From positions 186,001 to 250,000 of the forward strand of contig NZ_JAQZAO010000004.1 in NCBI RefSeq assembly GCF_028737315.1: a stretch of DNA of 64,000 bases. The letters are read 5' to 3'. The DNA is from Actinomycetospora lemnae. Lineage in GTDB: Bacteria > Actinomycetota > Actinomycetes > Mycobacteriales > Pseudonocardiaceae. Shown here one piece after another: positions 16,156-33,641 of this stretch. Every line of letters begins with the position of its first letter. The first letter of the stretch is position 1. Made by a program: the position numbers and the translations under genes. Under the pieces are notes generated by a model that worked only from the letters and a program-made list of their open reading frames with translations, was not told the DNA's origin and searched no databases.

Positions 16156-17043
16156 ATGACGGATGCGCGGCGGCCCGGAACTCCCGGCCGCGGTCCCGGC
16201 GGGGGGCGTTCCCTCAAGACCGCGGCCGAGGCACTGGCGGCGCTGCGCTTCCTCGGTGCCGCCGAGGACGGCGTCACGGCCGAGGCCCTCGGCGCCGAGC
16301 TCGGCAAGAGCACGGCGACCGCCCGGTACCTGCTCAACACCCTCTGCCAGGAGGGCTTCGCCGTCCGCGACCGGCAGACCGGCCGGGTCCGTCTCCAGGA
16401 GGCCCCGCCGTGGGGTGGGGCGTGGGGTGACGCCGAGGCCCCGCAGGACCTGACGCGCTACGAGCTGCCCGAGCGGCTCTCCGACGCGGTCACCGAGCTC
16501 TACTGGCGCACCCGCCAGCGCACCTACCTCGCGCGCTGGGAGGACGAGGACGCGACGGTGATCGTCGACGCCCGCGGCCACCAGGGCCTCGCCCGCATCC
16601 CCGACCTCGCCGAGCGCATCCCGCTCGCGTCGGCGCACGCGCTGGCCGTCACCAAGGCACTCATCGCCTCGTCCGGCACGCACGCCGCCGCGCTGCGCGA
16701 GCGCTCCCGGCTCGAGGCGTTCACCGGCACCACGATCACGAGCACCCCGGCGATCGAGCTCGAGCTCGAGCGGGTCCGCCGGCGCGGCTACGCGGTGGAC
16801 CGCGAGGAGTACGCCGAGGGCTTCTGCTGCATCGGCGCGCCGATCTTCGCCCCCGACGGGCGGGTCGCCGCGAGCATCGCGATCTCGACCCCGGCGACGC
16901 GCTTCGAGGCCCACGCCGAGGAGCTCACCGGCGCCGTCCGCGACGTCGCCAGCACGGCGACACGCGGATGGCTGGAGTCGGAGCCCGTCACGGGCGACCT
17001 GCCCCCGCCGCGACCGGCCGACCCCGTGCCCCCCGGGCACTGA
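16156..17043 (+). CDS. IclR-family transcriptional regulator (first of two paralogues)
   Basis: The start is ATG 16156, behind a strong GGGAGGAGGG. The 295-residue product has an N-terminal winged helix ([17 protein letters not shown], then [15 protein letters not shown] as the recognition helix) and an IclR effector domain from about residue 90, with [20 protein letters not shown] in the ligand-binding part. IclR proteins bind small organic acids or aromatics and act as repressors or activators. It lies 104 nt upstream of and codirectional with the monooxygenase operon. A clear paralogue sits at the far end of the cluster (30304-31209). Control of the monooxygenase genes is therefore likely but inferred. 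Confidence 0.88.
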
Positions 17044-17147: not shown

Positions 17148-18800
17148 ATGAGCCGTCAGAGTTTGGCGAAGGCTCACCAGAAGATCCAGGAACTTTCCTG
17201 GGAGCCGGTGTACCACGAGCCGTACATGAAGTACGGGACGGACTACACCTTCCGCAAGGCGGCCAAGAAGGACCCGCTCAAGCAGGTCCTCCGGTCCTAC
17301 TTCCCCATGCAGGAGGAGAAGGACAACCGCGTCTACGGAGCGTCCGACGGCGCGATCCGCGGGAACATGTTCCGCCAGGTCCAGGAGCGGTGGCTGGAGT
17401 GGCAGAAGCTCTTCCTGTCGATCATCCCGCTGCCGGAGATCTCGGCCGCCCGGTCGATGCCGATGCTGTTCCAGGCCGTTCCCAACCCGGAGCTGCACAA
17501 CGGCCAGGCGATCCAGATGATCGACGAGGTTCGGCACAGCACGATCCAGCAGAACCTCAAGCGGCTGTACATGAACAACTACATCGACCCGGCGGGCTTC
17601 AACAACACCCTCCGGAACTTCCACTCGGACTACTGCGGCACCATCGGCCGTCAGTTCGCCGAGGGGTTCATCACCGGTGACGCGATCACCGCGGCCAGCA
17701 TCTACCTCACGATCGTCGCCGAGACGGCGTTCACGAACACCCTGTTCGTGGCCATGCCGGCCGAGGCCGCGGCCAACGGTGACTACCTGCTGCCCACGGT
17801 GTTCCACTCCGTGCAGTCCGACGAGTCGCGGCACATCTCGAACGGCTACGCCACGCTGCTCATGGCGCTGTCGGACGAGGACAACCGCCAGCTCCTCGAG
17901 CGCGACCTGCGCTACGCGTGGTGGAACAACCACCGCGTGGTGGACGCCGCGATCGGCACGTTCATCGAGTACGGCACCAAGGACCGCCGCAAGGACCGCG
18001 AGTCCTACGCGGAGATGTGGCGCCGCTGGATCTACGACGACTACTACCGGGCGTACCTGCTGCCGCTCGAGAAGTACGGCCTCGTGATCCCGCACGACCT
18101 GGTCGAGGAGTCCTGGAACCAGATCTGGAACAAGGGCTACGTCCACGAGGTCGCGCAGTTCTTCGCCACCGGGTGGCTCGCGAACTACTGGCGCATCGAC
18201 GGCATGACCGACGAGGACTTCGAGTGGTTCGAGTACAAGTACCCGGGCTGGTACGACAAGTACGGCAAGTGGTGGGAGAACTACAACCGTCTGGCCAAGC
18301 CGAACGGCCACCACCCGATCGTCGCCGAGGACGTCGACTACGTGTACCCGCACCGGTGCTGGACCTGCATGGTCCCGTGCCTCGTGCGTGAGGACATGGT
18401 CGTGGACAAGGTCGACGGTCAGTGGCGGACGTACTGCCACGAGGCCTGCCGCTGGACCGACGCCGAGGCCTTCCGGCCCACGTACCAGGGTCGCGAGACC
18501 CCGAACATGGGCAAGCTCGTGGGTCACCGCGAGTGGGAGACGCTCTACCACGGCTGGAACTGGGCCGACGTGGTCTCCGACATGGGCTTCGTCCGCGACG
18601 ACGGCAAGACCATGACGGCGCAGCCGCACCTCGATCTCGACCCGAAGAAGATGTGGACGCTCGACCACCTGCGGCGCATGCCGCACGTGGCCAGCCCCAA
18701 CGTCATCCTCAACGAGATGAGCGACGCGGAGCGTGAGGCGTTCGTGGCGGACTACAACCGCCAGGGCCCGGCCGGCCGTCCGGCCGACGCGACCAGCTAG
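17148..18800 (+). CDS. mimA: Soluble diiron monooxygenase, hydroxylase alpha subunit
   Basis: The start is ATG 17148, behind AAGGAG. The 550-residue protein carries all six carboxylate/His ligands of a bacterial multicomponent monooxygenase diiron site: E97, E127-x2-H130, E192 and E226-x2-H229. The spacings (30, 3, 62, 34, 3) are the same as in methane monooxygenase MmoX. A C-terminal Cys-rich YHS-like segment (C404, C407, C411, then a further CxxxC) is typical of the propane/phenol branch. The gene order alpha, reductase, beta, coupling protein is that of the prm/mim/thm groups, which hydroxylate propane, acetone, phenol or cyclic ethers. It activates O2 in complex with the beta subunit. The substrate cannot be read from the sequence. 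Confidence 0.95.
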
Positions 18801-18941: not shown

Positions 18942-19994
18942 ATGGGTGACAAGCACCGGGTCCGCTTCGAACCGGTGGGCATCGAGATCGAGGTCGACGA
19001 GGACCAGACGATCCTGCGTGCCGCCTTCGAGCAGGGCGTGCAGCTCATGCACGGCTGCAAGGAAGGGCAGTGCGCCGCCTGCAAGTCCTTCGTCCTCGAG
19101 GGCGACATGGACGAGATCGAGCTCGACAAGTACTCGACGTTCGCCCTGCCCGACATGGAGCGCGAGGAGGGACAGACCCTCCTCTGCCGCGCCCACGCCT
19201 ACGACGACCTGGTCATCGAGCTCCTCAACTACGACGAGGAGATCATCCGCAGCGGTCTCCCGGTGCGGAAGGGCACCGTGGAGGTGCTGTCCAACGAGGC
19301 CGTCACCCACGACATGCGCCACCTCGTGGTCAAGCAGGTCGCCGGCGAGGACATCAAGTTCTTCCCCGGCCAGTACATGGACCTCACGGTGCCCGACACC
19401 GGCGAGGTGCGGTCGTTCTCGATGGCGAACCTCCCGAACCGCGAGGGCGTGTTCGAGTTCGTCATCAAGATCTACCCGGACGGCGCCTTCTCGCAGTTCC
19501 TGGAGAAGACGGTGGCGCCCGGTGACCGCATCGAGGTGGAGGGCCCGTTCGGGACCTGCACCCTGCGCGAGAACCGCACCTCCGACATCGTCTTCGTCGG
19601 CGGCGGCGCGGGCATGGCCCCGCTGCTCGGTCTCCTGCGGGCGCTCGCGGAGAAGGACGGCGAGCGGAAGGCGCGCCTCTACTACGGCGCGCGCACGAAG
19701 GCTGATCTCTGCTTCGAGGACGAACTGCGCGCGCTCGAGGAGAAGATCCCGGGCTTCCGCTACGTCCCCGCACTCTCCGAGCACACCGGCGACGACTGGG
19801 ACGGCGCGACCGGACTGATCACCGAGGTCGTCCGGGAGAACGAGCCGGGCCTGGAAGGGATGGATGCCTATGTGTGCGGGCCGCCGCCGATGGTGGATGC
19901 GGCGATCGCCCTGCTGACCCAGCGCGGAATGGACGAGCAGCACATCTACTTCGACAAGTTCACCACCACCGGAGAGCCGGAGGACGAGGGCTAA
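18942..19994 (+). CDS. mimB: Monooxygenase reductase component (2Fe-2S, FAD, NADH)
   Basis: A 350-residue reductase with the order ferredoxin, FAD domain, NAD domain. The plant-type 2Fe-2S cysteines are C39, C44, C47 and C82 (GCKEGQCAAC, then LLC). The FAD-binding RSFSMANLP (R-x-x-S type) is near residue 147, the NAD-binding VGGGAGMAP near residue 223, and the terminal CGPPPMV near residue 311. It takes electrons from NADH to the diiron hydroxylase. Its start is 141 nt beyond mimA, an unusually long gap in an otherwise compact operon, and that gap contains the strong hairpin. It is followed by mimC after 3 nt. Confidence 0.95.
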   Translation: MGDKHRVRFEPVGIEIEVDEDQTILRAAFEQGVQLMHGCKEGQCAACKSFVLEGDMDEIELDKYSTFALPDMEREEGQTLLCRAHAYDDLVIELLNYDEEIIRSGLPVRKGTVEVLSNEAVTHDMRHLVVKQVAGEDIKFFPGQYMDLTVPDTGEVRSFSMANLPNREGVFEFVIKIYPDGAFSQFLEKTVAPGDRIEVEGPFGTCTLRENRTSDIVFVGGGAGMAPLLGLLRALAEKDGERKARLYYGARTKADLCFEDELRALEEKIPGFRYVPALSEHTGDDWDGATGLITEVVRENEPGLEGMDAYVCGPPPMVDAAIALLTQRGMDEQHIYFDKFTTTGEPEDEG

Positions 19995-19997
19995 CCC

Positions 19998-21188
19998 ATG
20001 ACCAGCACCGAAGAACGTCCAGAGCGGAGCGTTCCGAAGCCCGTCTTCACCGACGCGGAAGCGGGCGCCAAGGAGTTCCCCGACTCCGGGCCCTCGGCCC
20101 GGCGCTACAACTACTTCAAGCCGGCGAAGCGCAAGCAGACCCACTACGAGGACGTGACGGTCGAGGTCCAGCCGGACCCGCGCCACTACCTCTCCCAGGG
20201 GTGGATCTACGGCTTCGCCGACGGCTCGCGCGGCTACCCGCTGACCTGGACGAAGCTCAAGGCGTGGGGGGTCGACGAGCCCGAGCCCGAGCGCGGCCCC
20301 GGCTCCGGCGGCAAGCACGTCGAGGACTGGCCGGCCCACGGGTGGCACGAGTTCCGTGATCCCAACGAGGAGTGGGAACTCACGATGTACCGGTACAACG
20401 CCAACGTTGTCCGGCAGGTCACCCAGAACGTCGAGAACGCCCGCAACGCGAAGGCGTTCGACCAGTGGACCCCGAACTGGGTGCGCTTCGTGGAGCGCAA
20501 CGTCGGCGCCTGGATGCACATCGAGCACATCCTCGGCCTGTACGTGTTCGCCGCGTGCAACCGGTCCGGCCCGACGAACATGCACAACACGGCGATGGCC
20601 GTGAACAGCGAGCACAAGATCCGCTTCGCGCAGGACCTGGCGCTCTACAACCTCACCCTCACCGAGGAGATCGAGGGCTTCGACGGCTCGGCCCACATCG
20701 ACGCGTGGAACAACGACGCGGAGTGGCAGGGCGTGCGCAAGGTCGTCGAGGAGATCACCGCCATCGAGGACGACTGGGGCGAGATGATCTTCGCCACCAA
20801 CATCGTCTTCGAGCCCCTGATCGGCGAGCTCTTCCGGTCGAACCTGGTCATGCAGTCGGCGGCCGGCCACGGCGACTACGTGACGCCGACCGTCATGGGC
20901 TCCGGGGAGTACGACTACGCCCAGCGCGACCTGCGCTGGACCGTCGCGGCCTTCGCGCCGCTGACGCAGGACCGCGAGTTCGCGGACCACAACAAGGAGC
21001 TGTTCAACGGCTGGCTCTCCAAGTGGGTGCCGAAGTGCCTCGAGGCGGCCCGCACGATGCAGCCGATGTGGTCGCAGCCCGACGCCAAGCCGCCGCGGTT
21101 CGAGGACGCCCTCGACCGAGCCAAGAGCCGTTTCTCCGCGATCCTCACCGACCTCGGCCTCGAGACCCCGAAGGAGCTGAACCAGTGA
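19998..21188 (+). CDS. mimC: Monooxygenase hydroxylase beta subunit
   Basis: A 396-residue, helix-rich protein with the ferritin-like fold of hydroxylase beta subunits but without the diiron ligands. Recognisable parts are RRYNYFKPAKRKQTHYEDVT near residue 36, QGWIYGFADG, and WTPNWVRFVERNVGAWMH in the core that packs on the alpha subunit. It forms the alpha2beta2 (sometimes with gamma) hydroxylase with MimA. It starts 3 nt after mimB and overlaps mimD by GTGA, which supports fixed subunit stoichiometry. Confidence 0.94.
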   Translation: MTSTEERPERSVPKPVFTDAEAGAKEFPDSGPSARRYNYFKPAKRKQTHYEDVTVEVQPDPRHYLSQGWIYGFADGSRGYPLTWTKLKAWGVDEPEPERGPGSGGKHVEDWPAHGWHEFRDPNEEWELTMYRYNANVVRQVTQNVENARNAKAFDQWTPNWVRFVERNVGAWMHIEHILGLYVFAACNRSGPTNMHNTAMAVNSEHKIRFAQDLALYNLTLTEEIEGFDGSAHIDAWNNDAEWQGVRKVVEEITAIEDDWGEMIFATNIVFEPLIGELFRSNLVMQSAAGHGDYVTPTVMGSGEYDYAQRDLRWTVAAFAPLTQDREFADHNKELFNGWLSKWVPKCLEAARTMQPMWSQPDAKPPRFEDALDRAKSRFSAILTDLGLETPKELNQ

Positions 21189-21565
21189 CCAAGAGTTTCA
21201 AGACGGCCGAGAGCCCGTTCAAGCAGGACAACACCGAGTCCGGCATGGCCGGCGTGACGCTGATGAACAACCAGATCGGCGTCGTGGTGGCCGAGGTGAT
21301 GGACCGTCAGGAGAACGTGACGGTCAAGCACCTGCCCTCGATGATCCGCGTGGACTGCGTGGGCCGCATGGACTTCGTGTACGCGGAGATCTCCGAGGCG
21401 CTCGGCGAGGAGCCCGACTTCTACAACGCCGCCGAGTTCGAGGAGAACATGTCGACCCACTACGGGAAGATGATCCACATGGACGACCGGACGATCATGT
21501 TCGGGAATCTCGAGGAGGCCGCCGAGTTCATCGGCGACATGCTCCCACCCGTGGTGAAGAAGTAG
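21185..21565 (+). CDS. mimD: Monooxygenase coupling/regulatory protein
   Basis: A 126-residue cofactor-free effector protein of the MmoB/DmpM family. Its GTG start lies in a GTGA overlap with mimC. The core GVTLMNNQIGVVVAEVMD and the following RVDCVGRMDFVYAEI are typical. It binds the hydroxylase and couples O2 activation to substrate oxidation. It is the last gene before a very strong hairpin, so the four catalytic components probably form one transcript segment. Confidence 0.93.
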   Translation: MTKSFKTAESPFKQDNTESGMAGVTLMNNQIGVVVAEVMDRQENVTVKHLPSMIRVDCVGRMDFVYAEISEALGEEPDFYNAAEFEENMSTHYGKMIHMDDRTIMFGNLEEAAEFIGDMLPPVVKK

Positions 21566-21643: not shown

Positions 21644-23377
<1,734 letters not shown>

Positions 23378-23407: not shown

Positions 23408-24436
23408 GTGAAGGCCGTTCGCGTCCACGGTTACCAGCAGGACCCCAGCCTCGACGACATCCCGGAGCCGAAGCTGCAGGGCCCGCTCGACGTCATCGTG
23501 AAGATCGGTGGCGCGGGGGTGTGCCGGACCGACCTGCACATCGTCAACGGTGACTGGGCGGACATCCAGAACCCGGATCTGCCCTACGTCATCGGGCACG
23601 AGAACGCCGGCTGGGTGCACGAGGTCGGTGACGCCGTCACCAACGTCAGCGTCGGGGACACCGTGATCCTGCACCCGCAGCCGTCCTGCGGGCTGTGCTT
23701 CGCGTGTCGGGCGGGGCGGGACATGCAGTGCACCGGGGGCGCGTTCTTCCCGGGCCTGTCCAACAACGACGGCGGGATGGCCGAGTACCTGCGGACCACC
23801 GCCCGGGCGTGCGTGAAGCTGAACCCGGACACCAACCCCGCCGACGTCGCGGCGCTCGCGGACGCGGGCATCACGGCGTACCACGCCGTGCGCAAGGCCG
23901 TGCCGTACCTGTACCCCGGCACGTCGGCGGTCGTCATCGGCGCCGGCGGCCTCGGCCACATCGGCATCCAGGCCCTGGCCGCGCTGACCGCGACGAAGAT
24001 CGTCGTGGTCGACAAGAACAAGGACGCCCTCGACCTGGCGAAGCGGATCGGCGCCGACGAGACGGTCCTCGCCGACGGCAACCAGGTGGGCGAGGTCCAG
24101 GAGCTGACCGGTGGGGGCGCCACCGTGGTCTTCGACTTCGTCGCCGAGCAGGGCGTCGAGCTCGAGGCCTGGCAGATGACCGGACCCGCGGGCTACCAGT
24201 TCGTCCTCGGGTACGGCGGTGAGTTCAAGGCCCCGACGCTCGACTTCGTCGCCGGGGAGAAGAACGTGATCGGCAACATCGTCGGGACGTACAACGACCT
24301 CGTCGAGCTCATGGTCCTGGCCCAGGCCGGCAAGGTCACGCTCCACACCCAGCAGTACTCGCTCGACAACGCCCTCGACGCCCTGCACGACCTGGACGCG
24401 AACAAGGTGCGCGGCCGGGCGATCCTCGTCCCGTAG
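23408..24436 (+). CDS. Zinc-dependent alcohol dehydrogenase (MDR family)
   Basis: A 342-residue medium-chain dehydrogenase starting at GTG 23408 behind GAGAGGA. The catalytic zinc ligands are C39 and H64-E65 (GHEN). The structural zinc is held by C94, C97, C100 and C108 (CGLCFAC, then C). The NAD-binding motif is GAGGLGHIG near residue 178. It probably oxidises the alcohol made by the monooxygenase to a ketone or aldehyde with NAD. Its position between the chaperonin and the amidohydrolase, with 30- and 15-nt gaps, places it in the same operon, as in known propane and acetone oxidation clusters. Confidence 0.93.
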   Translation: MKAVRVHGYQQDPSLDDIPEPKLQGPLDVIVKIGGAGVCRTDLHIVNGDWADIQNPDLPYVIGHENAGWVHEVGDAVTNVSVGDTVILHPQPSCGLCFACRAGRDMQCTGGAFFPGLSNNDGGMAEYLRTTARACVKLNPDTNPADVAALADAGITAYHAVRKAVPYLYPGTSAVVIGAGGLGHIGIQALAALTATKIVVVDKNKDALDLAKRIGADETVLADGNQVGEVQELTGGGATVVFDFVAEQGVELEAWQMTGPAGYQFVLGYGGEFKAPTLDFVAGEKNVIGNIVGTYNDLVELMVLAQAGKVTLHTQQYSLDNALDALHDLDANKVRGRAILVP

Positions 24437-26306: not shown

Positions 26307-26924
26307 ATGCCGGTCGATCCGGTCCGGCTCGATCCCGGCAACCACGTCGACCCCGGGACCGGCCGCTGCCTCATGGAGCACGTCTCGGTCCTGGCGGGGG
26401 AGCCGTTCCGGGCCTGGCCGCGGTGCACCCACCCCGCCGTGGCCGCGCTGGCGACCCAGGTCAACGACCGGTGCTCGCCCGTGGGCCGCGCCGCGCTCGT
26501 GCGGCGGGCCGAGGCGCTGACCCGGGCCGACAGCGACGACCCGGCGCTGACCTGGCGCCTGGTCGCGCACGCCGCCGCATCCGTGCTCGCCCTGCGCCCG
26601 GGCGACCCCGGCGCGCTCCGGCGGATCGTCCGGGCCCGGCGCGCGGCCCGCGCGTGGCGCACCGCCGTCCCGCACCGGCTCGCGCGGCGACTGCCGCGGT
26701 GGGCCGTCGTGGGCTGCGGGCTCGCCGCGCTCGACGAGCTCGTCGCGGCCGTGCACGCGCTGCTCGCCGTGACCGGACCGCCCGGCTCCCCGGAGCGCGA
26801 CATCGCCCTGGTCGCCCTGCTCGACACGGTGCTCGACGACGTCCTGGACGACAGGCCCGACGCCCCGCCCACCCCCGCCCTCCCCGTGCCGCGGACCCCC
26901 GTCCGAGAGGAGCAGTACGCATGA
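26307..26924 (+). CDS. Hypothetical protein of the monooxygenase operon, 205 aa
   Basis: The ATG at 26307 follows GAGGAGA and begins 32 nt after the DUF59 gene. The product opens with DPGNHVDPGTGRCLMEHVSVLAGE, split here between a short acidic start and a VSVLAGEPF module with a nearby CTHP, then becomes a long Ala/Arg-rich helical region and a Pro-rich tail. The N-terminal module looks like one I associate with uncharacterised actinobacterial proteins, but I cannot name a function. The CTHP and GRC cysteine/histidine residues could bind a metal. It overlaps the next gene by ATGA. Confidence 0.7.
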   Translation: MPVDPVRLDPGNHVDPGTGRCLMEHVSVLAGEPFRAWPRCTHPAVAALATQVNDRCSPVGRAALVRRAEALTRADSDDPALTWRLVAHAAASVLALRPGDPGALRRIVRARRAARAWRTAVPHRLARRLPRWAVVGCGLAALDELVAAVHALLAVTGPPGSPERDIALVALLDTVLDDVLDDRPDAPPTPALPVPRTPVREEQYA

Positions 26925-27526
26925 CTGCGCCCAGCGAGACCCCCCGCACCGTCCGTCGGATCGGGTCGCCGGCCGCCGCCGCGCTGGCCGACCTCGCCGC
27001 GATCTTCGACGACCTGCAGACCGTGCTCCTGTGCTGCGAGCGCCTGGTGACGCAGCTGTCCGTCCCGGAGCCGGATCCGGTCGTCGTCGAGTCCCTGTGG
27101 ACGACGGCCCTGCTGTCCTACACCCGCTGCTTCGCCCCGGGCGGGCGCGGCATGGGCCTGACCGAGGCCGATGTGACCGGGCTCCAGCTCGAGGGCGAGG
27201 TGCTCGCCTGGCACCAGATGCTGCGCCAGCTCAAGAAGCACTACGCCGACCCCGCCGCCAACCCGCGCGAGACGTTCGACGTCGGCGTGGCCGTGGCCGA
27301 CGGCGTGCCCCAGGGGGTCGCGATCACCTCCACCCGCCAGGCGCTGCCCGACACGATCTCGGTGCACCAGACCGGCGCGATCGCCTACCAGCTCAGCCAG
27401 CTCGTCGACCAGCGCATCGCCGAGCACCAGGGCACGGTGCTCGAGGGGGCCCGCAGCCTGAGCCCCTCGGAGCTGGAGACGCTGGACGAGGTCGAGCTCA
27501 CCGACGCCCCGGAGGGGGAGGCGTGA
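26921..27526 (+). CDS. Hypothetical protein of the monooxygenase operon, 201 aa
   Basis: The start overlaps the previous stop in ATGA, and its own stop overlaps the next start in GTGA, so it is translated as part of a block of three. The product is mainly helical and soluble. A Cys pair (LLCCERL near residue 36) and a conserved-looking EGEVLAWHQMLRQLKKHY segment near residue 90 stand out. I do not recognise the family. Its place suggests a role in assembly or regulation of the monooxygenase, but this is only context. Confidence 0.7.
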   Translation: MTAPSETPRTVRRIGSPAAAALADLAAIFDDLQTVLLCCERLVTQLSVPEPDPVVVESLWTTALLSYTRCFAPGGRGMGLTEADVTGLQLEGEVLAWHQMLRQLKKHYADPAANPRETFDVGVAVADGVPQGVAITSTRQALPDTISVHQTGAIAYQLSQLVDQRIAEHQGTVLEGARSLSPSELETLDEVELTDAPEGEA

Positions 27527-27768
27527 TCGAGAAGTACAACCCCTGGACCGTCGTCAACCTCGTCTTCAACCACCTCGCCGAGCACGGGCTGCACCCCGTG
27601 CTGGGCGAGTCCGGCGACCCGTCGGAGGCGGCGGCGCAGCTGCTGCGCTCGCTCGGGATCACGCCCGGCGACCCGTCGTGGGGCGAGGGCCAGGACGCCG
27701 AGCGCGTGCGCGACGACCTCGCCCGCATCCGGGCGGCGTTCGACGCGTCCCACGACACCCGGGACTGA
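27523..27768 (+). CDS. Small hypothetical protein of the monooxygenase operon, 81 aa
   Basis: The GTG start lies in a GTGA overlap with the preceding gene. The 81-residue product begins IEKYNPWTVVNLVFNHLAEHGLHPVLG and continues as a charged helix. It has no signal peptide, cysteines or membrane segments. It looks like a small adaptor or binding partner of the preceding gene. Codon usage and tight coupling support it as a real gene; the function is unknown. Confidence 0.7.
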   Translation: MIEKYNPWTVVNLVFNHLAEHGLHPVLGESGDPSEAAAQLLRSLGITPGDPSWGEGQDAERVRDDLARIRAAFDASHDTRD

Positions 27769-27770
27769 CC

Positions 27771-28316
27771 GTGGTCACGATGCGCGTCGCGCGCCTCGTC
27801 GTGCACCGGATGACGCGGGAGCCGCTCGCGCTGCTCGTCGAGGCGGGCGCCGACCGGTGCCTCGTCGTCTCGGTGCGCGGGCCCCAGGCCGAGATCATCG
27901 ACCGCGGCCCGCGCCCACCGGAGCCGTCCGACGACGACCGGCTCACCCAGGACCTCCTCGGCGAGCTGGCCCTGCTCGTGGGCCGGCGGCTCGACCACGG
28001 CGCCATCGTCGACCTCGTCGACGACCGGTTCCGGGCCGAGCTCGTGCTCGACGACGGGTCGCGCCTCCCGGCCCGGCCGAGCGACGTGCTCGCGGTCGCG
28101 GTGCGCGAGGCGCTGCCGATCGAGGTCGCCGACGCGGTGCTCGACGCGGTCGGCCAGTCGTTCAGCGAGCTCGGCGGAGACAGGAAGGAGCCCGCGCGCG
28201 AGGCCGCCGAGCAGGTGGTCGAGATGCGGGCGTTCCTCGAGCAGGCCACGGCCCAGGACTTCGGCCGCCCGCCCGACGGCGGCGAGGGCCGTGAGCAGGG
28301 TCGGGAGTCCGGCTGA
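27771..28316 (+). CDS. Bifunctional-nuclease-domain (BFN, DUF151) protein
   Basis: A 181-residue protein starting at GTG 27771, 2 nt after the previous stop; an ATG at 27780 is an alternative. Residues ~12-125 form a BFN (DUF151) domain, with PLALLVEAGADRCLVVSV and a DLVDDRFRAELVL strand pair, followed by PSDVLAVAVREALPIEV, the usual end of the domain. BFN proteins were first described as dual DNase/RNase enzymes in plants, and bacterial members are widespread. A role in the monooxygenase operon is unexplained. A hairpin follows the stop directly. Confidence 0.85.
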   Translation: MVTMRVARLVVHRMTREPLALLVEAGADRCLVVSVRGPQAEIIDRGPRPPEPSDDDRLTQDLLGELALLVGRRLDHGAIVDLVDDRFRAELVLDDGSRLPARPSDVLAVAVREALPIEVADAVLDAVGQSFSELGGDRKEPAREAAEQVVEMRAFLEQATAQDFGRPPDGGEGREQGRESG

Positions 28317-28339: not shown

Positions 28340-28460
28340 GCGGTGTCGCCGGTCGTTCGTCTCGATCCGAGACACGCGAAGGCCCCTGCGGAGCCCGTTC
28401 GGGCCGTACGATGCCGTGTTGTCCATCACTTCGGCGTGGTGGTCGATGGCGAGGTGGCCC

Positions 28461-30323
28461 ATGGACGGACGCGCCCAGAGCGCCCTCGGTCGTGCGCGTG
28501 AGTACTTCGTCGACCGGGGCTCGGTGAGCGCCTCCGGCATCGTCCGGCCCGAGATCGTCGACTCCTGGGAGCGCTCGCGGCGCGCCGGGGTCGACGCGAC
28601 CCACCTCGACCTCCCCTACGAGCCCGACCTCGACTTCGACGGCAGCCTGGCCAACTGCGCGCGGCCGGTGCTCGACGACCTCGCCGAGCGCCTCTCGGGC
28701 ATGTCCGTGGCCGTGGTGCTCACCGACGCCGACGGGCGGGTGCTCGAGCGCCGGGTCGGCGAGGGCGAGCTCCAGCGCCGCCTCGACGCGATCTCGCTCG
28801 CGCCCGGCTTCAGCTACGCCGAGGAGTTCGCCGGCACCAACGGGGTCGGCACCTCGCTCGAGGGCGCGATCCCGGCCCTGGTCGTCGGCGCCGAGCACTT
28901 CAGCGAGCGCCTGCAGGCCTTCGCGTGCGCGGGTGCGCCGGTGCGCGGCCCGGATGGCGCGCTCGCCGGCATCCTCGACGTCACCTGCCTGCGCTCCGAG
29001 GCCAACGACCTCATGCGCTTCCTCGCCCAGCAGGCCGCCACGGACATCGAGGACGTGCTGCGCGAGCGGGGCGGGGTCGGCATCCGCCGGGTCATGGCGG
29101 CGTTCCGCGCCACGTGCGCCCGCACCCGCGGGCCGGTGCTCGCGCTCACCGACGACCTCGTCATGGCCAACCGCGCCGCCCGCGCGCTCTCCCCGCTCGA
29201 CCAGGACCGGGTGACGATGCGGGCGCTCGAGCTGGGCGAGACCGCGCGCCCGCACCAGGACCGGGTGCTCCTCGCCGACGGGCCGGCGCGCCTCATGATC
29301 ACCCCGGTGCCCGCCGAGCGGCCGGTCGGCGTCGTCGTCGAGGTGGTGCCGAGCCGCAGCAGCCTGCGCCTCGCCGGACGCGAGGACGCGCCGCCGGAAC
29401 GGCCCGACATGCCCGCCCCGCCGGGCCCCGCGTTGCCGGGCCCGTCGTCGTCCGTGTCGACGTGGGCGCCGCCCGCGCCGGCCGCGGACCGCCCGCTGCC
29501 CGGCCTGCCCGGCGACTCGCGGCCGTGGCGATCGGTCGCCGCCGCGCTGCGCACGGCGGCGGCCGCGGCGCGCAGCACCGTCGTCCTCGGCGAGCCGGGC
29601 ACGGGCAAGACCGCCGCGGTGCGCGCCGTGCACGGCGAGACCCGTTCCTGTGCGCGGTGGGTCGCGGTCGACGGCACCGACCCGGAGGCCGCGGTCACGC
29701 TCGCCGGGTACGCGGCGGAGGCGTCGACGGACGGGGCGGGACCGGTCACGGTGGTCGTGCGGCACACCGAGGCGCTCGACGAGGCCGGCGCGGGGGCGCT
29801 GACGGCGCTGCTCGGCGAGGTCCCCTCGACGTGGTGGGTGGTCGGGCTGATCACCGCGGAGCGCGCGCCCGAGGAGGGTCCGGTCAGCGGTGTGCTGGCG
29901 GGGTTCGCGACGTCAGTGCTGGTCGAGCCGCTGCGCCGCCGGCCCGACGACGTGCCGGTGATCGCCGCCGCCCTGCTCGCCCGCCTCGCGCCGTCACGGC
30001 GCGCCCGGTGCACGCCGGAGACCGCGGCGCTGCTCACCGGCGCCCGCTGGCCCGGCAACGTCACCCAGCTCAGCGGCGTGCTGCGCCGTGCGCTCGCCGC
30101 GCGCCCGGCCGGGGACATCGAGCCCGGCGACCTGCCCGCGGACTTCGCGAGCGGCACCCGCCGGCGTCTCACCCCGCTCGAGTCCGCCGAGCGCGACCTC
30201 ATCGTGTCCGCGCTGGTCGAGGCGAACGGCAACCGCAAGCAGGCCGCGGCGGCGCTCGGGATCGGGCGGGCGACTCTGTACCGGCGGCTGCGGGCGTTCG
30301 GGATCAGCGACGTGGGCCGCTGA
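28461..30323 (+). CDS. AcoR/MimR-like activator with GAF, degenerate AAA+ and Fis-type HTH domains
   Basis: A 620-residue regulator starting at ATG 28461 behind GAGGTGG. Residues ~60-215 are a GAF-like sensor (FSYAEEFAGTNGVGTSLEG is typical of AcoR-type activators). The ~360-510 region is an AAA+-like domain with Walker A GEPGTGKT, and the C-terminus is a Fis-type HTH (NRKQAAAALGIGRATLYRRL). The sigma-54 contact motif GAFTGA is absent and Walker B is degenerate (VVVRHTEAL), consistent with Actinobacteria lacking sigma-54. Related activators (MimR, PrmR) switch on mim/prm operons in response to substrate. It lies just downstream of the operon, on the same strand. Confidence 0.9.
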   Translation: MDGRAQSALGRAREYFVDRGSVSASGIVRPEIVDSWERSRRAGVDATHLDLPYEPDLDFDGSLANCARPVLDDLAERLSGMSVAVVLTDADGRVLERRVGEGELQRRLDAISLAPGFSYAEEFAGTNGVGTSLEGAIPALVVGAEHFSERLQAFACAGAPVRGPDGALAGILDVTCLRSEANDLMRFLAQQAATDIEDVLRERGGVGIRRVMAAFRATCARTRGPVLALTDDLVMANRAARALSPLDQDRVTMRALELGETARPHQDRVLLADGPARLMITPVPAERPVGVVVEVVPSRSSLRLAGREDAPPERPDMPAPPGPALPGPSSSVSTWAPPAPAADRPLPGLPGDSRPWRSVAAALRTAAAAARSTVVLGEPGTGKTAAVRAVHGETRSCARWVAVDGTDPEAAVTLAGYAAEASTDGAGPVTVVVRHTEALDEAGAGALTALLGEVPSTWWVVGLITAERAPEEGPVSGVLAGFATSVLVEPLRRRPDDVPVIAAALLARLAPSRRARCTPETAALLTGARWPGNVTQLSGVLRRALAARPAGDIEPGDLPADFASGTRRRLTPLESAERDLIVSALVEANGNRKQAAAALGIGRATLYRRLRAFGISDVGR

Positions 30324-31209
30324 CCAGCGGCTCGCTGTGGACCGGGCGCACCGGGGCCGCGGGCTCCAACGGCAGGGCGGGCACCGGGCGTGCCCCGACC
30401 TCGCCGGCCCACTGCGCGCTCGCGTGCCGGGCCACCGCGCGCACCGCGTCGACCAGCTCGTCCTCGTCGAGCGCCAGCCGGCGCGCCGAACAGGACAGCC
30501 CGAGCGCCACCGTCACCGCGCCGGACGGCGAGACGACCGGGGCGGCGATGGTGGCGAAGCCCTCGGCGAACTCCTCGCGGTCGAGCGCGACCCCTTCCTG
30601 GCGCACGGCGTCGAGCTCGGCCCGCAGCGCGGCGAGGTCGGTGACGGTCGCCGGGGTGAGCGCGAGCGGCTGCCCCTCCTCGTCGACGACCTCGCGGTAC
30701 GCCGCCGAGGTCGCGAGCAGCACCTTGGTCATGGCGAGCGCGTGGGCGTGGGCCGGCGGCACGTGGTCGCCGAGGCCCGGGTGCTTGGCGAGGCCCTGGT
30801 GGCCGCGCGAGTCGGTGACCGAGGCGACCACGGTGCCCGTGCGGCGCACGAGGTAGGAGCGCTGGCGGGTGCGCCGGTAGAGCTCGGTGGTGGCCTCGGC
30901 GAGCACGGCGCCGGGGTCCGGGTCACCGGGGACGGGGCTGGGCGCCTCGGCGCTCGTACCCCAGTGGCCCCAGGGCGGCGCGTCGGAGAGCCGGCAGCGG
31001 CCGGACGCCGTGCGTTCGGCGTATCCGGCCTCGCACAAGGTGTTGATCATGTATCGGGCGGTCGCAGCGCTCTTGCCGAGCTCCTTGGCGAGGTCCGCGG
31101 CGCACAGGCCCTCGGGGTGGTCCCCGAGCAGGCGCAGCGCGCGCAGGACCGTCGCCGCGGTCTTCAGCGACCGCGACCCACCGCCCCCGGGCACCACGTC
31201 GTCGTCCAC
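30304..31209 (-). CDS. IclR-family transcriptional regulator (second paralogue)
   Basis: A 301-residue IclR protein, clearly paralogous to the one at 16156. It shares RSLKTAA, LGKSAATARYMINTLCEAGY, a DAPPWG linker, YRRTRQRSYL and the DREEFAEGF effector loop. I place the start at GTG 31209, giving an N-terminus comparable in length to the first paralogue; the frame is open to an ATG at 31281. Its last 20 nt overlap the convergent activator gene. Two such paralogues flanking one operon suggest opposing or ligand-specific control of the monooxygenase genes, which is an inference. Confidence 0.85.
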   Translation of the reverse strand: MDDDVVPGGGGSRSLKTAATVLRALRLLGDHPEGLCAADLAKELGKSAATARYMINTLCEAGYAERTASGRCRLSDAPPWGHWGTSAEAPSPVPGDPDPGAVLAEATTELYRRTRQRSYLVRRTGTVVASVTDSRGHQGLAKHPGLGDHVPPAHAHALAMTKVLLATSAAYREVVDEEGQPLALTPATVTDLAALRAELDAVRQEGVALDREEFAEGFATIAAPVVSPSGAVTVALGLSCSARRLALDEDELVDAVRAVARHASAQWAGEVGARPVPALPLEPAAPVRPVHSEPLVSGPRR

Positions 31210-31281
31210 ACCGCTGACGGTAGGGCTCCCGCGACGTGACGCCTGTCTCAATGTGGGACGCCCAGCGAACGCCCCACCCAT

Positions 31282-31329: not shown

Positions 31330-32814
31330 TCAGCGCAGGTCGACGGGCTCGCCGGCCGCGGCGCGGGCGAGGGCGTGACGGGAGGGCTCGCGGTAGAGCG
31401 GGTAGAGCTCGCCGACCGTCCGGTCCACCGCCGCGCGGTCGAGCCACGCCGGGCCGCCCAGGCGCTCGCGGCCCTCGGCGGTCAGGGTGACGGGCTGCGC
31501 GCCCGGCCGGGGCGGGTCGCCGAGACCGACGAGGTCGCTGCCGCGGGCGAGCAGGCGCTCGACGCCCCGGGCCCCGATGCGCCCGTACGACATGGTCTCC
31601 ACCTCGAGCCCCGGCACGATGACCTTCGCGGTGACCGCCGACCCGGCGTCCGCGACCACCGTGAGCACGTCGAACCCGTCGAGACGGGCGAGCAGGTCGT
31701 CGAGCAGCGCGCCGGGCTCGGACAGGCCCGGGGTGTGCGGCAGGTCGGTGAACGCCACCCGCCCCCGGCGCGCGAGCACGGTGGGCTCGAGCAGGTCGCG
31801 CAGCTCGGCGGGCCCGCGCGCGATCCAGTCGGCCATCGCCTCGAACGCCCGGCGCTCCTGCGGCGGCACCGGGTGCGCGAGCTCGCGCTCCCAGTACCGG
31901 GCGTCGAACAGCGGCCCGACGGTGTCGAGATCGGCGTGGGCGACGAGCTTGCGCACCCGCGCGGAGCAGAACTCCAGCAGCGCCTTCTGCAGGGCCTCCT
32001 CGCGGTCCGGGTGCGCGGCCTCGCCGCACGCCGTGACCGAGATCGGGTGCGGGGCGTCGGCGGGGTCGGTGTCGTAGCCGACGACGTGCAGGTCGGTGAC
32101 GCCGAACGCCGTCGACGCGAGCTTCGGCACGACGGTGATGCCGACGTCGGCGAGGTGGTCGAGCAGCCGGCGGGTGTCGGGGTCGGTGACGCCGTCGGTG
32201 TCGATGACGATGCCGCGGTCCAGCGCCCGGAACGCGGTCGCGTTGCCGTCGCGCTGCAGCAGCTCGCCCAGGGCGTGCCCGACCGCGCGCTCGGCGGTGT
32301 CGCCGGCGCCGCAGCCGTTGGTGATGACCGTGATCAGCCGCTCCTCGGCGGGCTGCCAGTCGAGGTCGACGGGGTAGGCCGCCGCGAACTCGGCGGGGAC
32401 GAGCACCTCCTCGCCGGTGCGCCACCGCGTCGTCGGCAGCCACCAGCGCGCGGCGTCCGGGTCGTAGTCGGTGCCCGCGGGCAGGACGAGGGCGACCGGG
32501 TCGACGACCCGGTCGTCGCCGCGGGCGGCCCGCAGCTCGGTGAAGGAGCCGCGGACGGGCTCGAGCTCGCGCAGGCGCCGGGCCAGCAGCATCTCCTCGG
32601 CGAGCTCGGCGTGGGCCGCGACCCGGGCCCGCTCGGCGGACAGGCCGTAGCCGAACGCGCCGCTGCGCGGCCACTCGGCGGCCGGGTCGGCGTGGTCGGC
32701 GGCCACCACGGCGACGCCGGTCCGGTCGGCGGACGACAGCTCGACGTCGCCCACCTCGCCCGGGGGCAGCGCCGCGTCCAGCGCGGCGGTGACGTCGTCG
32801 TAGGACACCGTCAC
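31330..32814 (-). CDS. YcaO-domain protein
   Basis: A 494-residue protein. Its core ITNGCGAGDTAERAVGHALGELLQRDG corresponds to the YcaO signature (N-G-x-A-x-G, then a helix with E-x-x-x-R-D); a second conserved helix is EEALQKALLEFCSAR. YcaO proteins activate a peptide amide with ATP to make azoline rings, thioamides or amidines. Two ATP-site positions look altered: Q in LLQRD where E is usual, and S in EFCSAR where Q is usual. The C-terminus ends GEPVDLR without the Pro-rich tail of azoline synthetases. It is the last gene of a coupled six-gene operon, and I see no precursor-peptide gene nearby. Confidence 0.8.
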   Translation of the reverse strand: MTVSYDDVTAALDAALPPGEVGDVELSSADRTGVAVVAADHADPAAEWPRSGAFGYGLSAERARVAAHAELAEEMLLARRLRELEPVRGSFTELRAARGDDRVVDPVALVLPAGTDYDPDAARWWLPTTRWRTGEEVLVPAEFAAAYPVDLDWQPAEERLITVITNGCGAGDTAERAVGHALGELLQRDGNATAFRALDRGIVIDTDGVTDPDTRRLLDHLADVGITVVPKLASTAFGVTDLHVVGYDTDPADAPHPISVTACGEAAHPDREEALQKALLEFCSARVRKLVAHADLDTVGPLFDARYWERELAHPVPPQERRAFEAMADWIARGPAELRDLLEPTVLARRGRVAFTDLPHTPGLSEPGALLDDLLARLDGFDVLTVVADAGSAVTAKVIVPGLEVETMSYGRIGARGVERLLARGSDLVGLGDPPRPGAQPVTLTAEGRERLGGPAWLDRAAVDRTVGELYPLYREPSRHALARAAAGEPVDLR

Positions 32815-33641
32815 CGCAGCTCGTCCAGCGGGACCGGCCCGGCCACCGGCTGCGCGGAGAGCAGCCGGTCGTAGAGCGCGAGGACGGTCTTGGTGGAGAT
32901 GCCCGACGCGTACTCGAACGGCGTCGCGACGGCGTCGAAGTCGAGCCGCTCGATGACGGCGTAGGCGTCGCGGATCTCCTGGTGGGAGAGCGGGATCTGC
33001 GCGTGGTACGCCTTGTGCGCGCTCAGCCCGACCGGCGCGCCGTCGGCGTCGAAGCTCGCCTTGAGCATGTCACCGCAGAACAGGATGCCGCGCCGCTCGT
33101 CGTGCAGGACGTTGTGGCCGTCGAAGTGCCCGCCGGTGCGGTGGGCGACGAGGCCGGGGGCGAACTCGTGGCGGTCGTCGAGGGGCCAGGTGACGCGGAA
33201 GGCCTTGGTCCACTCCAGGTCGCGGACCCCGATCCCGAGCACCGGCGGGTCGAGCTCGTCCTGGAGCTGGAAGAGCGCGCCGTAGCCGTGGACGTGGCTC
33301 GCGCCGAGTGCCGCGAGCCCGCCGCGGCGACGGATCTCGGCGATGGCGGCGTCCGGGTAGAAGCCGGCGGCCTCCCAGCCGACGAGCCCGCGATCGGTCT
33401 CGATCACCCACCCGCAGGTGCCCAGCCCGACCTGCGGCTCGCACCAGAAGCCGGTGACGCCGGGCGTCACCTCCTCCCAGCGGGCCTCGCGACCCGCGGC
33501 GAGGTCGGCGAACGACCGGAACTCCCAACCGTCCTCGGGCAGGGCGTTGCGGACGTCGACGCACACCGGGCACTGCGGCGGCACGGCGAACCAGCGCTGC
33601 CAGTGCCCGCAGTTGGTGCAGGTCCAGGGGCTCAGGGGCAT
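32811..33641 (-). CDS. Metallo-beta-lactamase-fold protein with N-terminal zinc ribbon
   Basis: A 276-residue protein. Residues 8-27 hold a zinc ribbon (CTNC, then CPVC). The rest is an MBL fold: SHVHGYGALFQL is where H-x-H-x-D-H is expected, then HRTGGHFDGHNVL and ILFCGDML. The first metal motif is degenerate (H-x-H-G-Y-G), while later His and Asp residues remain, so it could bind one metal or have lost hydrolysis. The zinc ribbon suggests a protein or nucleic-acid contact. Its start overlaps the Gfo/Idh stop by 10 nt, and it overlaps the YcaO gene by GTGA. Confidence 0.85.
   Translation of the reverse strand: MPLSPWTCTNCGHWQRWFAVPPQCPVCVDVRNALPEDGWEFRSFADLAAGREARWEEVTPGVTGFWCEPQVGLGTCGWVIETDRGLVGWEAAGFYPDAAIAEIRRRGGLAALGASHVHGYGALFQLQDELDPPVLGIGVRDLEWTKAFRVTWPLDDRHEFAPGLVAHRTGGHFDGHNVLHDERRGILFCGDMLKASFDADGAPVGLSAHKAYHAQIPLSHQEIRDAYAVIERLDFDAVATPFEYASGISTKTVLALYDRLLSAQPVAGPVPLDELR

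Follow-up and report, generated by a model that had tools for sequence, protein, structure and literature searches.

The window, the whole 64,000-nucleotide stretch of Actinomycetospora lemnae DNA that was analysed, carries on its forward strand an operon for a soluble diiron monooxygenase. Three overlapping genes within it encode proteins of 205, 201 and 81 aa, here called A205, B201 and C81, and lie between a DUF59 gene and a gene for a bifunctional-nuclease-domain protein (BFN). The features of the locus are as follows.

17148..18800, + strand: hydroxylase alpha subunit (MimA/PrmA-like), by homology to solved diiron hydroxylase alpha chains
18942..19994, + strand: reductase (MimB-like), named by position
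19998..21188, + strand: hydroxylase beta subunit (MimC-like)
21185..21565, + strand: coupling protein (MimD-like), named by position
21689..23377, + strand: GroEL-like chaperonin (MimG-like)
23408..24436, + strand: alcohol dehydrogenase, named after the gene order tabulated in PMC7176365
24452..25513, + strand: amidohydrolase-like protein, named after the same table of PMC7176365
25510..26274, + strand: FeS_assembly_P (DUF59) protein (PF01883, E=6e-13)
26307..26924, + strand: A205, 205-aa ORF with an ATG start, of a scattered uncharacterised actinobacterial family
26921..27526, + strand: B201, 201-aa ORF with an ATG start, predicted helical bundle and beta hairpin
27523..27768, + strand: C81, 81-aa ORF with a GTG start, near-obligate companion of the clade-1 hydroxylase
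27771..28316, + strand: BFN, bifunctional-nuclease-domain protein, operon copy (PF02577, E=1.6e-14)
28359..28373, no strand: palindrome GTCTCGATCCGAGAC, 87 bp ahead of the regulator gene, with two mismatches to GTCTCA-N3-TGAGAC
28461..30323, + strand: Fis-type (DhaR/AcoR-like) activator, the presumed operon regulator
31245..31259: palindrome-like site GTCTCAATGTGGGAC, one mismatch, inside the annotated frame of the ORF at 30304-31281, near its start

The alpha subunit is homologous to the methane monooxygenase hydroxylase alpha chain (E=2e-65 among solved structures). The order alpha-reductase-beta-coupling protein, with a dedicated GroEL, is that of a Mim/Prm-type soluble diiron monooxygenase and fits the order and lengths tabulated in PMC7176365. 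The amidohydrolase has matches of up to 99% in Actinomycetospora loci (A. straminea; best 80 of 226 candidates). Two related genes that by eye encode IclR-like regulators (16156-17043 and 30304-31281) flank the operon. On the minus strand, at 31330-33641, lie overlapping genes for 494 and 276 aa, the 276-aa product having zinc-ribbon-like CxxC pairs (by eye). Rfam had no match in the window, and PHROGs and a plasmid collection gave nothing useful.

The three overlapping genes and their products

The adjacent pairs A205/B201 and B201/C81 each share 4 nt (ATGA and GTGA, respectively). A codon model trained on ten neighbouring genes called all three as genes, with coding scores of 65, 119 and 54, and dN was below dS in 20/20 comparisons with relatives (six for A205, seven each for B201 and C81; dN/dS roughly 0.13-0.66). 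A205, B201 and C81 are thereby confirmed as real genes under purifying selection. Coordinates, coding scores and substitution rates all agree with the sequence-only reading, which had placed three genes with 4-nt overlaps between DUF59 and BFN. Homologues share 41-95% identity for B201 (25 rows) and 48-87% for C81 (45 rows). Of 13 Actinomycetospora operons examined, the window's included, 12 show the B201/C81 overlap, five of them without A205, and all eight operons that have A205 show the A205/B201 overlap; because the start codon nearest the overlap was chosen by script, both counts are biased towards overlaps.

The same reading had called the genes unrecognised, and this holds: the window's A205, B201 and C81 all fell below the curated Pfam cut-offs, had no NCBIfam match and found nothing in the PDB with E < 0.3. 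Known metallochaperone families gave no match for any of the three in Pfam and NCBIfam, nor for C81 and B201 relatives in Pfam. Pfam returned scattered weak matches for 46 C81 sequences (best E 0.036) and 26 B201 sequences (best E 0.0011), and the best values in PDB profile searches were E 0.83 for C81 and E 0.44 for B201. No description of C81 or B201 was found in the excerpts of open-licence literature consulted, including those of PMC7176365, PMC4428276, PMC11057499 and PMC9324122.

Profile searches and structure prediction, which had been proposed as a check, brought no confident family or fold match for B201 or C81; in fold searches, HEPN, flagellin and CheA-P1 domains scored alike. In the B201 model (pLDDT 86.8, pTM 0.78), four long helices are predicted, the third and fourth being separated by a beta hairpin. 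The model of C81 was poor (pLDDT 67, pTM 0.36), which might suit a protein that folds on a partner. Alignment of B201 to the HEPN toxin 7ae8 gave a VIA-align Z of 9.6 (129 residues, rmsd 3.7 A), which is within the chance range of helical bundles and is equalled by flagellin, and no Foldseek match reached E<0.3. The HEPN motif is R-X4-6-H; none is conserved in the 26-row B201 alignment, nor is H107 of the window protein. Since the HEPN match is at chance level and no catalytic motif is conserved, a nuclease role of B201 is unlikely.

Of the 81 positions of C81, 21 are invariant among 46 sequences, mostly in the N-terminal half, and no Cys is conserved; in the B201 alignment (26 rows), C39 is invariant and the adjoining C38 is not. 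This pattern weakens the argument from Cys and His in the sequence-only reading, which had named metal delivery among its candidates. A part for A205, B201 or C81 in metal delivery is possible, and His/Glu ligands are conceivable.

Distribution across operons and genomes

Operons were compared in the best 80 of 226 candidate named loci, 46 of which had a near-complete alpha gene and groEL (loci and genomes bear our working numbers, L and G). Within these best 80, C81 was present in 43/46 near-complete operons, an NRAMP transporter gene in 26, B201 in 19, BFN in 11 and A205 in 7; the three operons without C81 include L136, whose contig is broken off. Among the same best 80, 45 loci have both C81 and alpha; in 34 of them C81 is upstream, with a median gap of about 100 bp, and in the other 11, those of Actinomycetospora, it is downstream.

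A tree of alpha subunits has two clades, both with 100/100 support. C81 accompanies 58 of 62 clade-1 rows (three lack it and one is on a broken contig) and 0/12 clade-2 rows. In this tree L047, L049 and L223 were labelled C81-positive via C81 elsewhere in the genome, and other short loci by their own content, which agrees with the genome-level search except for L070, whose genome (G107) has C81 beside another alpha. The clade-1 operons without C81 are that of G076 at the genome level and L171 and L177 at the locus level; because three operons of the tree lack it, C81 is not strictly essential. In G076 (L239, upstream of 8017) C81 is gone, and two palindromes of the kind described below and the remaining operon are kept. 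The clade-2 clusters examined have the four components, GroEL and mostly the same kind of regulator, with no C81.

At the genome level, the sample comprised 249 genomes of the order, 25 with a clade-1 alpha (at least 87% identity to the window alpha; G053 and G107 were included on fragments found in the follow-up) and 224 others. C81 was present in 24/25 genomes with a clade-1 alpha and 0/224 others (p=1.5e-32), and B201 in 17/25 and 5/224, respectively (p=3e-16). A205 was found in 5/25 and 25/224 (p=0.2) among 12 first-look candidates per genome; just these 12 were scored, so A205 is possibly undercounted, and the counts show no association. The co-occurrence with mimA that had been proposed as a check on all three genes is thus seen for B201 and C81 and is absent for A205. 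The C81 counts rest on 24 strong matches (E<=1.1e-11); five weak ones (E 1e-4 to 4e-4) were rejected, with a profile E of 0.016 or worse.

The five genomes with B201 outside the clade-1 set are of three kinds. In G022 and G153 the operon ends meet the contig end, and no alpha was found in the assembly. G156 and G243 are without any alpha. In G027 (L042:10279-10467) only about the last 64 residues of alpha are left, with B201 adjoining, the operon otherwise complete and no palindrome near. Neither C81 nor B201 occurs in the 11 clade-2-only genomes of the sample. Across the class, the C81 profile matched 2/394 genomes, one being the window's own and the other having C81 next to a 92% alpha; across the phylum (346 genomes), the B201 profile found, besides the window's own genome, a single weak and partial relative (E=1e-4). 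A comparison of distance matrices singled out no partner for C81. Partial correlations over 33 loci outside Actinomycetospora were 0.31 with the regulator (the highest), 0.27 with DUF59 and 0.03 with alpha, and over all 44 loci 0.25 with DUF59 and 0.24 with alpha.

Among the loci examined, the trio A205-B201-C81 was found in Actinomycetospora only. The operon copies of A205 are one clade within a wider actinobacterial family, and the window's own genome has another copy elsewhere. A205 is a late insertion into the operon, made within Actinomycetospora, and probably unrelated to the enzyme. The three genes have separate histories and are not one module. The trio had been read as tightly coupled and perhaps a single complex, a view that does not survive the presence of A205 in just 7/46 operons (best 80 of 226 candidates), its single operon clade and its lack of association with the enzyme.

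Other neighbours of the hydroxylase genes include transporters. The NRAMP transporter of L030 matches Pfam with E=6e-118, NRAMP occurs in the clade-2 cluster L242 as well, and a member of a putative 10TM heavy-metal exporter family is encoded in L040. In the clade-2 locus L244 (14115-16969; G012), groEL is followed by genes for an iron-dependent repressor, FeoA and FeoB, with a 1-mismatch palindrome ahead of them; NRAMP occupies the place of these Feo genes in many other operons. Such neighbours fit an operon that needs a supply of iron or manganese. The link to metals lies with them rather than with A205, B201 or C81, and their support for metal delivery is indirect. Downstream of clade-2 clusters there is also a family of about 180 aa with no Pfam match (L240:15102-15647, L241:14661-15218 and L244:16981-17517; 28% identity between L240 and L244); the L240 member has a 1-mismatch palindrome 16 bp ahead of it. 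This family is perhaps the clade-2 counterpart of accessory genes of the B201/C81 type. Second Actinomycetospora loci carry amidohydrolase-DUF59, some with ADH, and no monooxygenase gene in the stretch (L144, L145, L146, L148, L153, L154, L156, L158, L160 and L165).

The GTCTCA-N3-TGAGAC palindrome

The palindrome GTCTCA-N3-TGAGAC was spotted by comparing C81 flanks. Sites were counted within 300 bp upstream of gene starts with at most one mismatch; matches whose alignment began after residue 30 were left out, and L045 was checked apart. Loci L026-L045 partly duplicate named loci (e.g. L030 and L166), and identical stretches were removed from the palindrome and C81-alpha pair counts. A site lies upstream of 52/68 alpha, 41/58 C81 and 51/66 regulator starts, and of 2/40 B201 starts. 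None was found upstream of groEL (0/78), beta (0/74), coupling protein (0/78), reductase (0/71), DUF59 (0/42), NRAMP (0/28) or A205 (0/17), and BFN in Actinomycetospora operons has no palindrome of its own (0/13). Eight permuted motifs, seven of them distinct, gave 0 sites against 10 for the real motif (12 loci). Among distinct C81-alpha neighbour pairs, 36/43 have sites both before C81 and between the two genes.

Genome-wide counts, with the control in brackets, were 3 (1) in the window's own genome, 6 (0) in G138, 6 (3) in G004, 6 (0) in G217, 3 (0) in G040 and 4 (2) in G023. The relaxed form GTCTCR-N3-YGAGAC occurs once in the window's genome, before the regulator at the operon end. Upstream of the window alpha there is no site with two mismatches or fewer, and regulation therefore looks rewired in Actinomycetospora. 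The neighbouring Fis-type regulator would be the protein that binds the palindrome, and the sites would likewise function in promoters. The open-licence literature gave nothing useful on the regulator or its operator.

In two genomes, G188 and G247, the cluster is scattered: the genes from alpha to groEL stay together, C81 lies by a pafB-like gene and B201 stands alone. Sites with at most one mismatch number 6 in G247 and 10 in G188 (reversed control 1 and 1). Two of those in G247 separate gene pairs, one alpha from the regulator and the other a regulator homologue from an amidohydrolase; three precede C81, B201 and a BFN copy, respectively, and the last is some 490 bp ahead of a peroxidase gene. 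The sites in G188 mark two alphas, an amidohydrolase, an adh cassette, C81 and BFN; for four of the ten no connection with the enzyme is evident, and the 2-mismatch site at B201 comes on top of the ten. The palindrome near the peroxidase gene, GTCTCAGTACGAGAC (L253:1501-1515), is found at G188:C46:209230 as well, the two genomes being related. Abundant catalase/peroxidase is recorded, in the portion of PMC7176365 consulted, for A. chiangmaiensis on acetone or 2-hydroxyisobutyrate.

Relocated copies were also compared locus by locus; in L037, L044 and L040 B201 is unlinked or separately transcribed. C81 in L218 and L219 has the palindrome with one mismatch, as does B201 in L036 and L040; B201 in L033, L037 and L044 has it with two, the site being identical in L037 and L044, which are of the same genus. 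In L218, L033, L036, L037 and L044 it is the sole site with at most two mismatches in about 20 kb, and in L025 and L045, B201 loci of genomes without alpha, about 20 kb contain none. BFN copies in L259 and L261 have the palindrome upstream. In L040 C81 lies apart from alpha with no site before it, the nearest being after C81 and before adh. Across seven such loci, 13/122 gene starts have a site within 150 bp: six of C81 or B201, five of divergent neighbours, one of adh and one other. Sites at relocated C81, and those at B201 in L033, L037 and L040, could serve the divergent gene, because the region is common to both. That C81 is functionally connected with the pafB-like gene (L218, L219; paf naming by eye) was rejected as the main reading, the two genes lying on opposite strands with the intergenic region and palindrome in common; the site may have a role for the pafB-like gene.

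The operon BFN is a member of the BFN domain family (54.1 bits against a PF02577 gathering score of 27), some relative of which was present in 54/55 genomes searched. Its identity is 45% to the palindrome-bearing copy of G188 and 52% to that of G247, against 30-41% for other matches. BFN, which the sequence-only reading left out of its group, is more partner-like in its behaviour than A205, which lies outside the accessory set by every test made. Since C81, B201 and BFN each lie near a palindrome in the scattered genomes, B201-C81-BFN emerges as a coherent accessory set, and it looks like the natural unit.

A candidate maturation set and its alternatives

With moderate confidence, we propose that C81, B201 and the BFN copy belong, as accessory genes, to the regulon of a MimABCD-type monooxygenase, A205 being a late insertion, and that C81 and B201 aid maturation of the hydroxylase. 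C81 would have a regulated promoter of its own next to the alpha promoter, would bind the hydroxylase or a folding intermediate via its conserved N-terminal half (NPW...GLHPxLG), and, with the GroEL-like protein, would help the hydroxylase to assemble or to load iron. B201, as a helical-bundle protein, would assist the same maturation, and in Actinomycetospora the regulon would have been gathered into one operon. A wider form of the proposal is more tentative: C81 may be a dedicated component, either an assembly factor or a fifth subunit, of a whole clade of actinobacterial Mim/Prm-type enzymes, gained once at the base of that clade, with B201 and BFN completing a palindrome-marked maturation set.

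It is unlikely, though not implausible, that C81 has no hydroxylase partner and serves the Fis-type activator as a regulatory cofactor, e.g. an anti-activator or co-sensor. The usual place of C81 is between alpha and the divergently oriented regulator gene, flanked by palindromes in the 36/43 pairs counted above; C81 is near the regulator in Actinomycetospora, and outside that genus the regulator gives its top partial distance correlation (0.31). However, clade-2 clusters have the same kind of regulator and the palindrome without C81, and in L218, L219 and L040 C81 lies away from the regulator. An accessory role dedicated to the hydroxylase is favoured over a regulatory one because C81 tracks the hydroxylase clade and the kind of regulator is common to the sister clade.

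As a small protein with a strict tie to a single alpha clade, C81 could instead be a structural fifth component, a gamma-like subunit of the mature hydroxylase. The solved relatives of alpha are the methane, toluene and toluene/o-xylene monooxygenase hydroxylases, which are alpha-beta-gamma enzymes. That of methane monooxygenase is (MmoXYZ)2 (PMC9324122, in part), and the account of prmABCD clusters in the part of PMC4428276 consulted names no gamma. We regard such a subunit as quite unlikely, however: the sister clade and three clade-1 operons are without C81, and C81 has no sequence or fold match to a solved hydroxylase subunit.

That B201 and C81 are passengers held by linkage alone seems improbable. 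Most copies found are operon-linked and B201 is missing from 27/46 near-complete operons (best 80 of 226 candidates), as passengers might be, but unlinked copies persist with a genome-rare palindrome adjoining, and both genes are under purifying selection. Least credible is one complex of A205, B201 and C81, held at a fixed ratio by overlapping translation and serving metal delivery or localisation: the 4-nt overlaps are conserved and NRAMP is found in 26/46 near-complete operons (best 80 of 226 candidates), but A205 is missing from most operons in which B201 and C81 occur and shows no association with alpha, several genomes carry C81 and B201 unlinked, and C81 has no conserved Cys.

A helper in hydroxylase maturation, as we prefer to see C81, would be of wider interest. 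Mim/Prm-type monooxygenases oxidise acetone, propane and some pollutants. In the parts of the cited literature consulted, the helper known is the GroEL-like protein, and C81 is a concrete candidate for a missing one. The palindrome offers a means of finding further regulon members genome-wide.

DmpK is a small accessory protein encoded beside diiron hydroxylase genes, with a suggested role in assembly. C81 resembles MmoD and DmpK in that its gene is dedicated to the hydroxylase and usually adjoins it; by sequence it is unlike them, with no Pfam match below E=0.03 among 46 C81 sequences. Closest to the locus in gene content is the MimABCD-MimG cluster of A. chiangmaiensis DSM 45062 (L142), from the same genus and with the order MimA-B-C-D-GroEL-Adh1-amidohydrolase in PMC7176365, whose Table 1 ends at the amidohydrolase and does not list DUF59, B201, C81, BFN or NRAMP. 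According to the same partial source, MimA, MimC, the GroEL-like protein, Adh1 and the amidohydrolase each make up 1.8-6.1% of the proteome of cells grown on 2-hydroxyisobutyrate, levels little changed from acetone-grown cells. The prmABCD clusters of Rhodococcus, Gordonia and Mycobacterium likewise have four components, a metal-dependent hydrolase, a metal-sulfur biosynthesis gene, ADH, GroEL and a Fis regulator, and no counterpart of C81 or B201 is named in the corresponding part of PMC4428276. A contribution to active-site assembly or folding has been proposed for MmoD and MmoG (PMC9324122, in part), and these two are the closest analogues, by kind rather than by common ancestry. In the window, the GroEL-like protein is the counterpart of MmoG.
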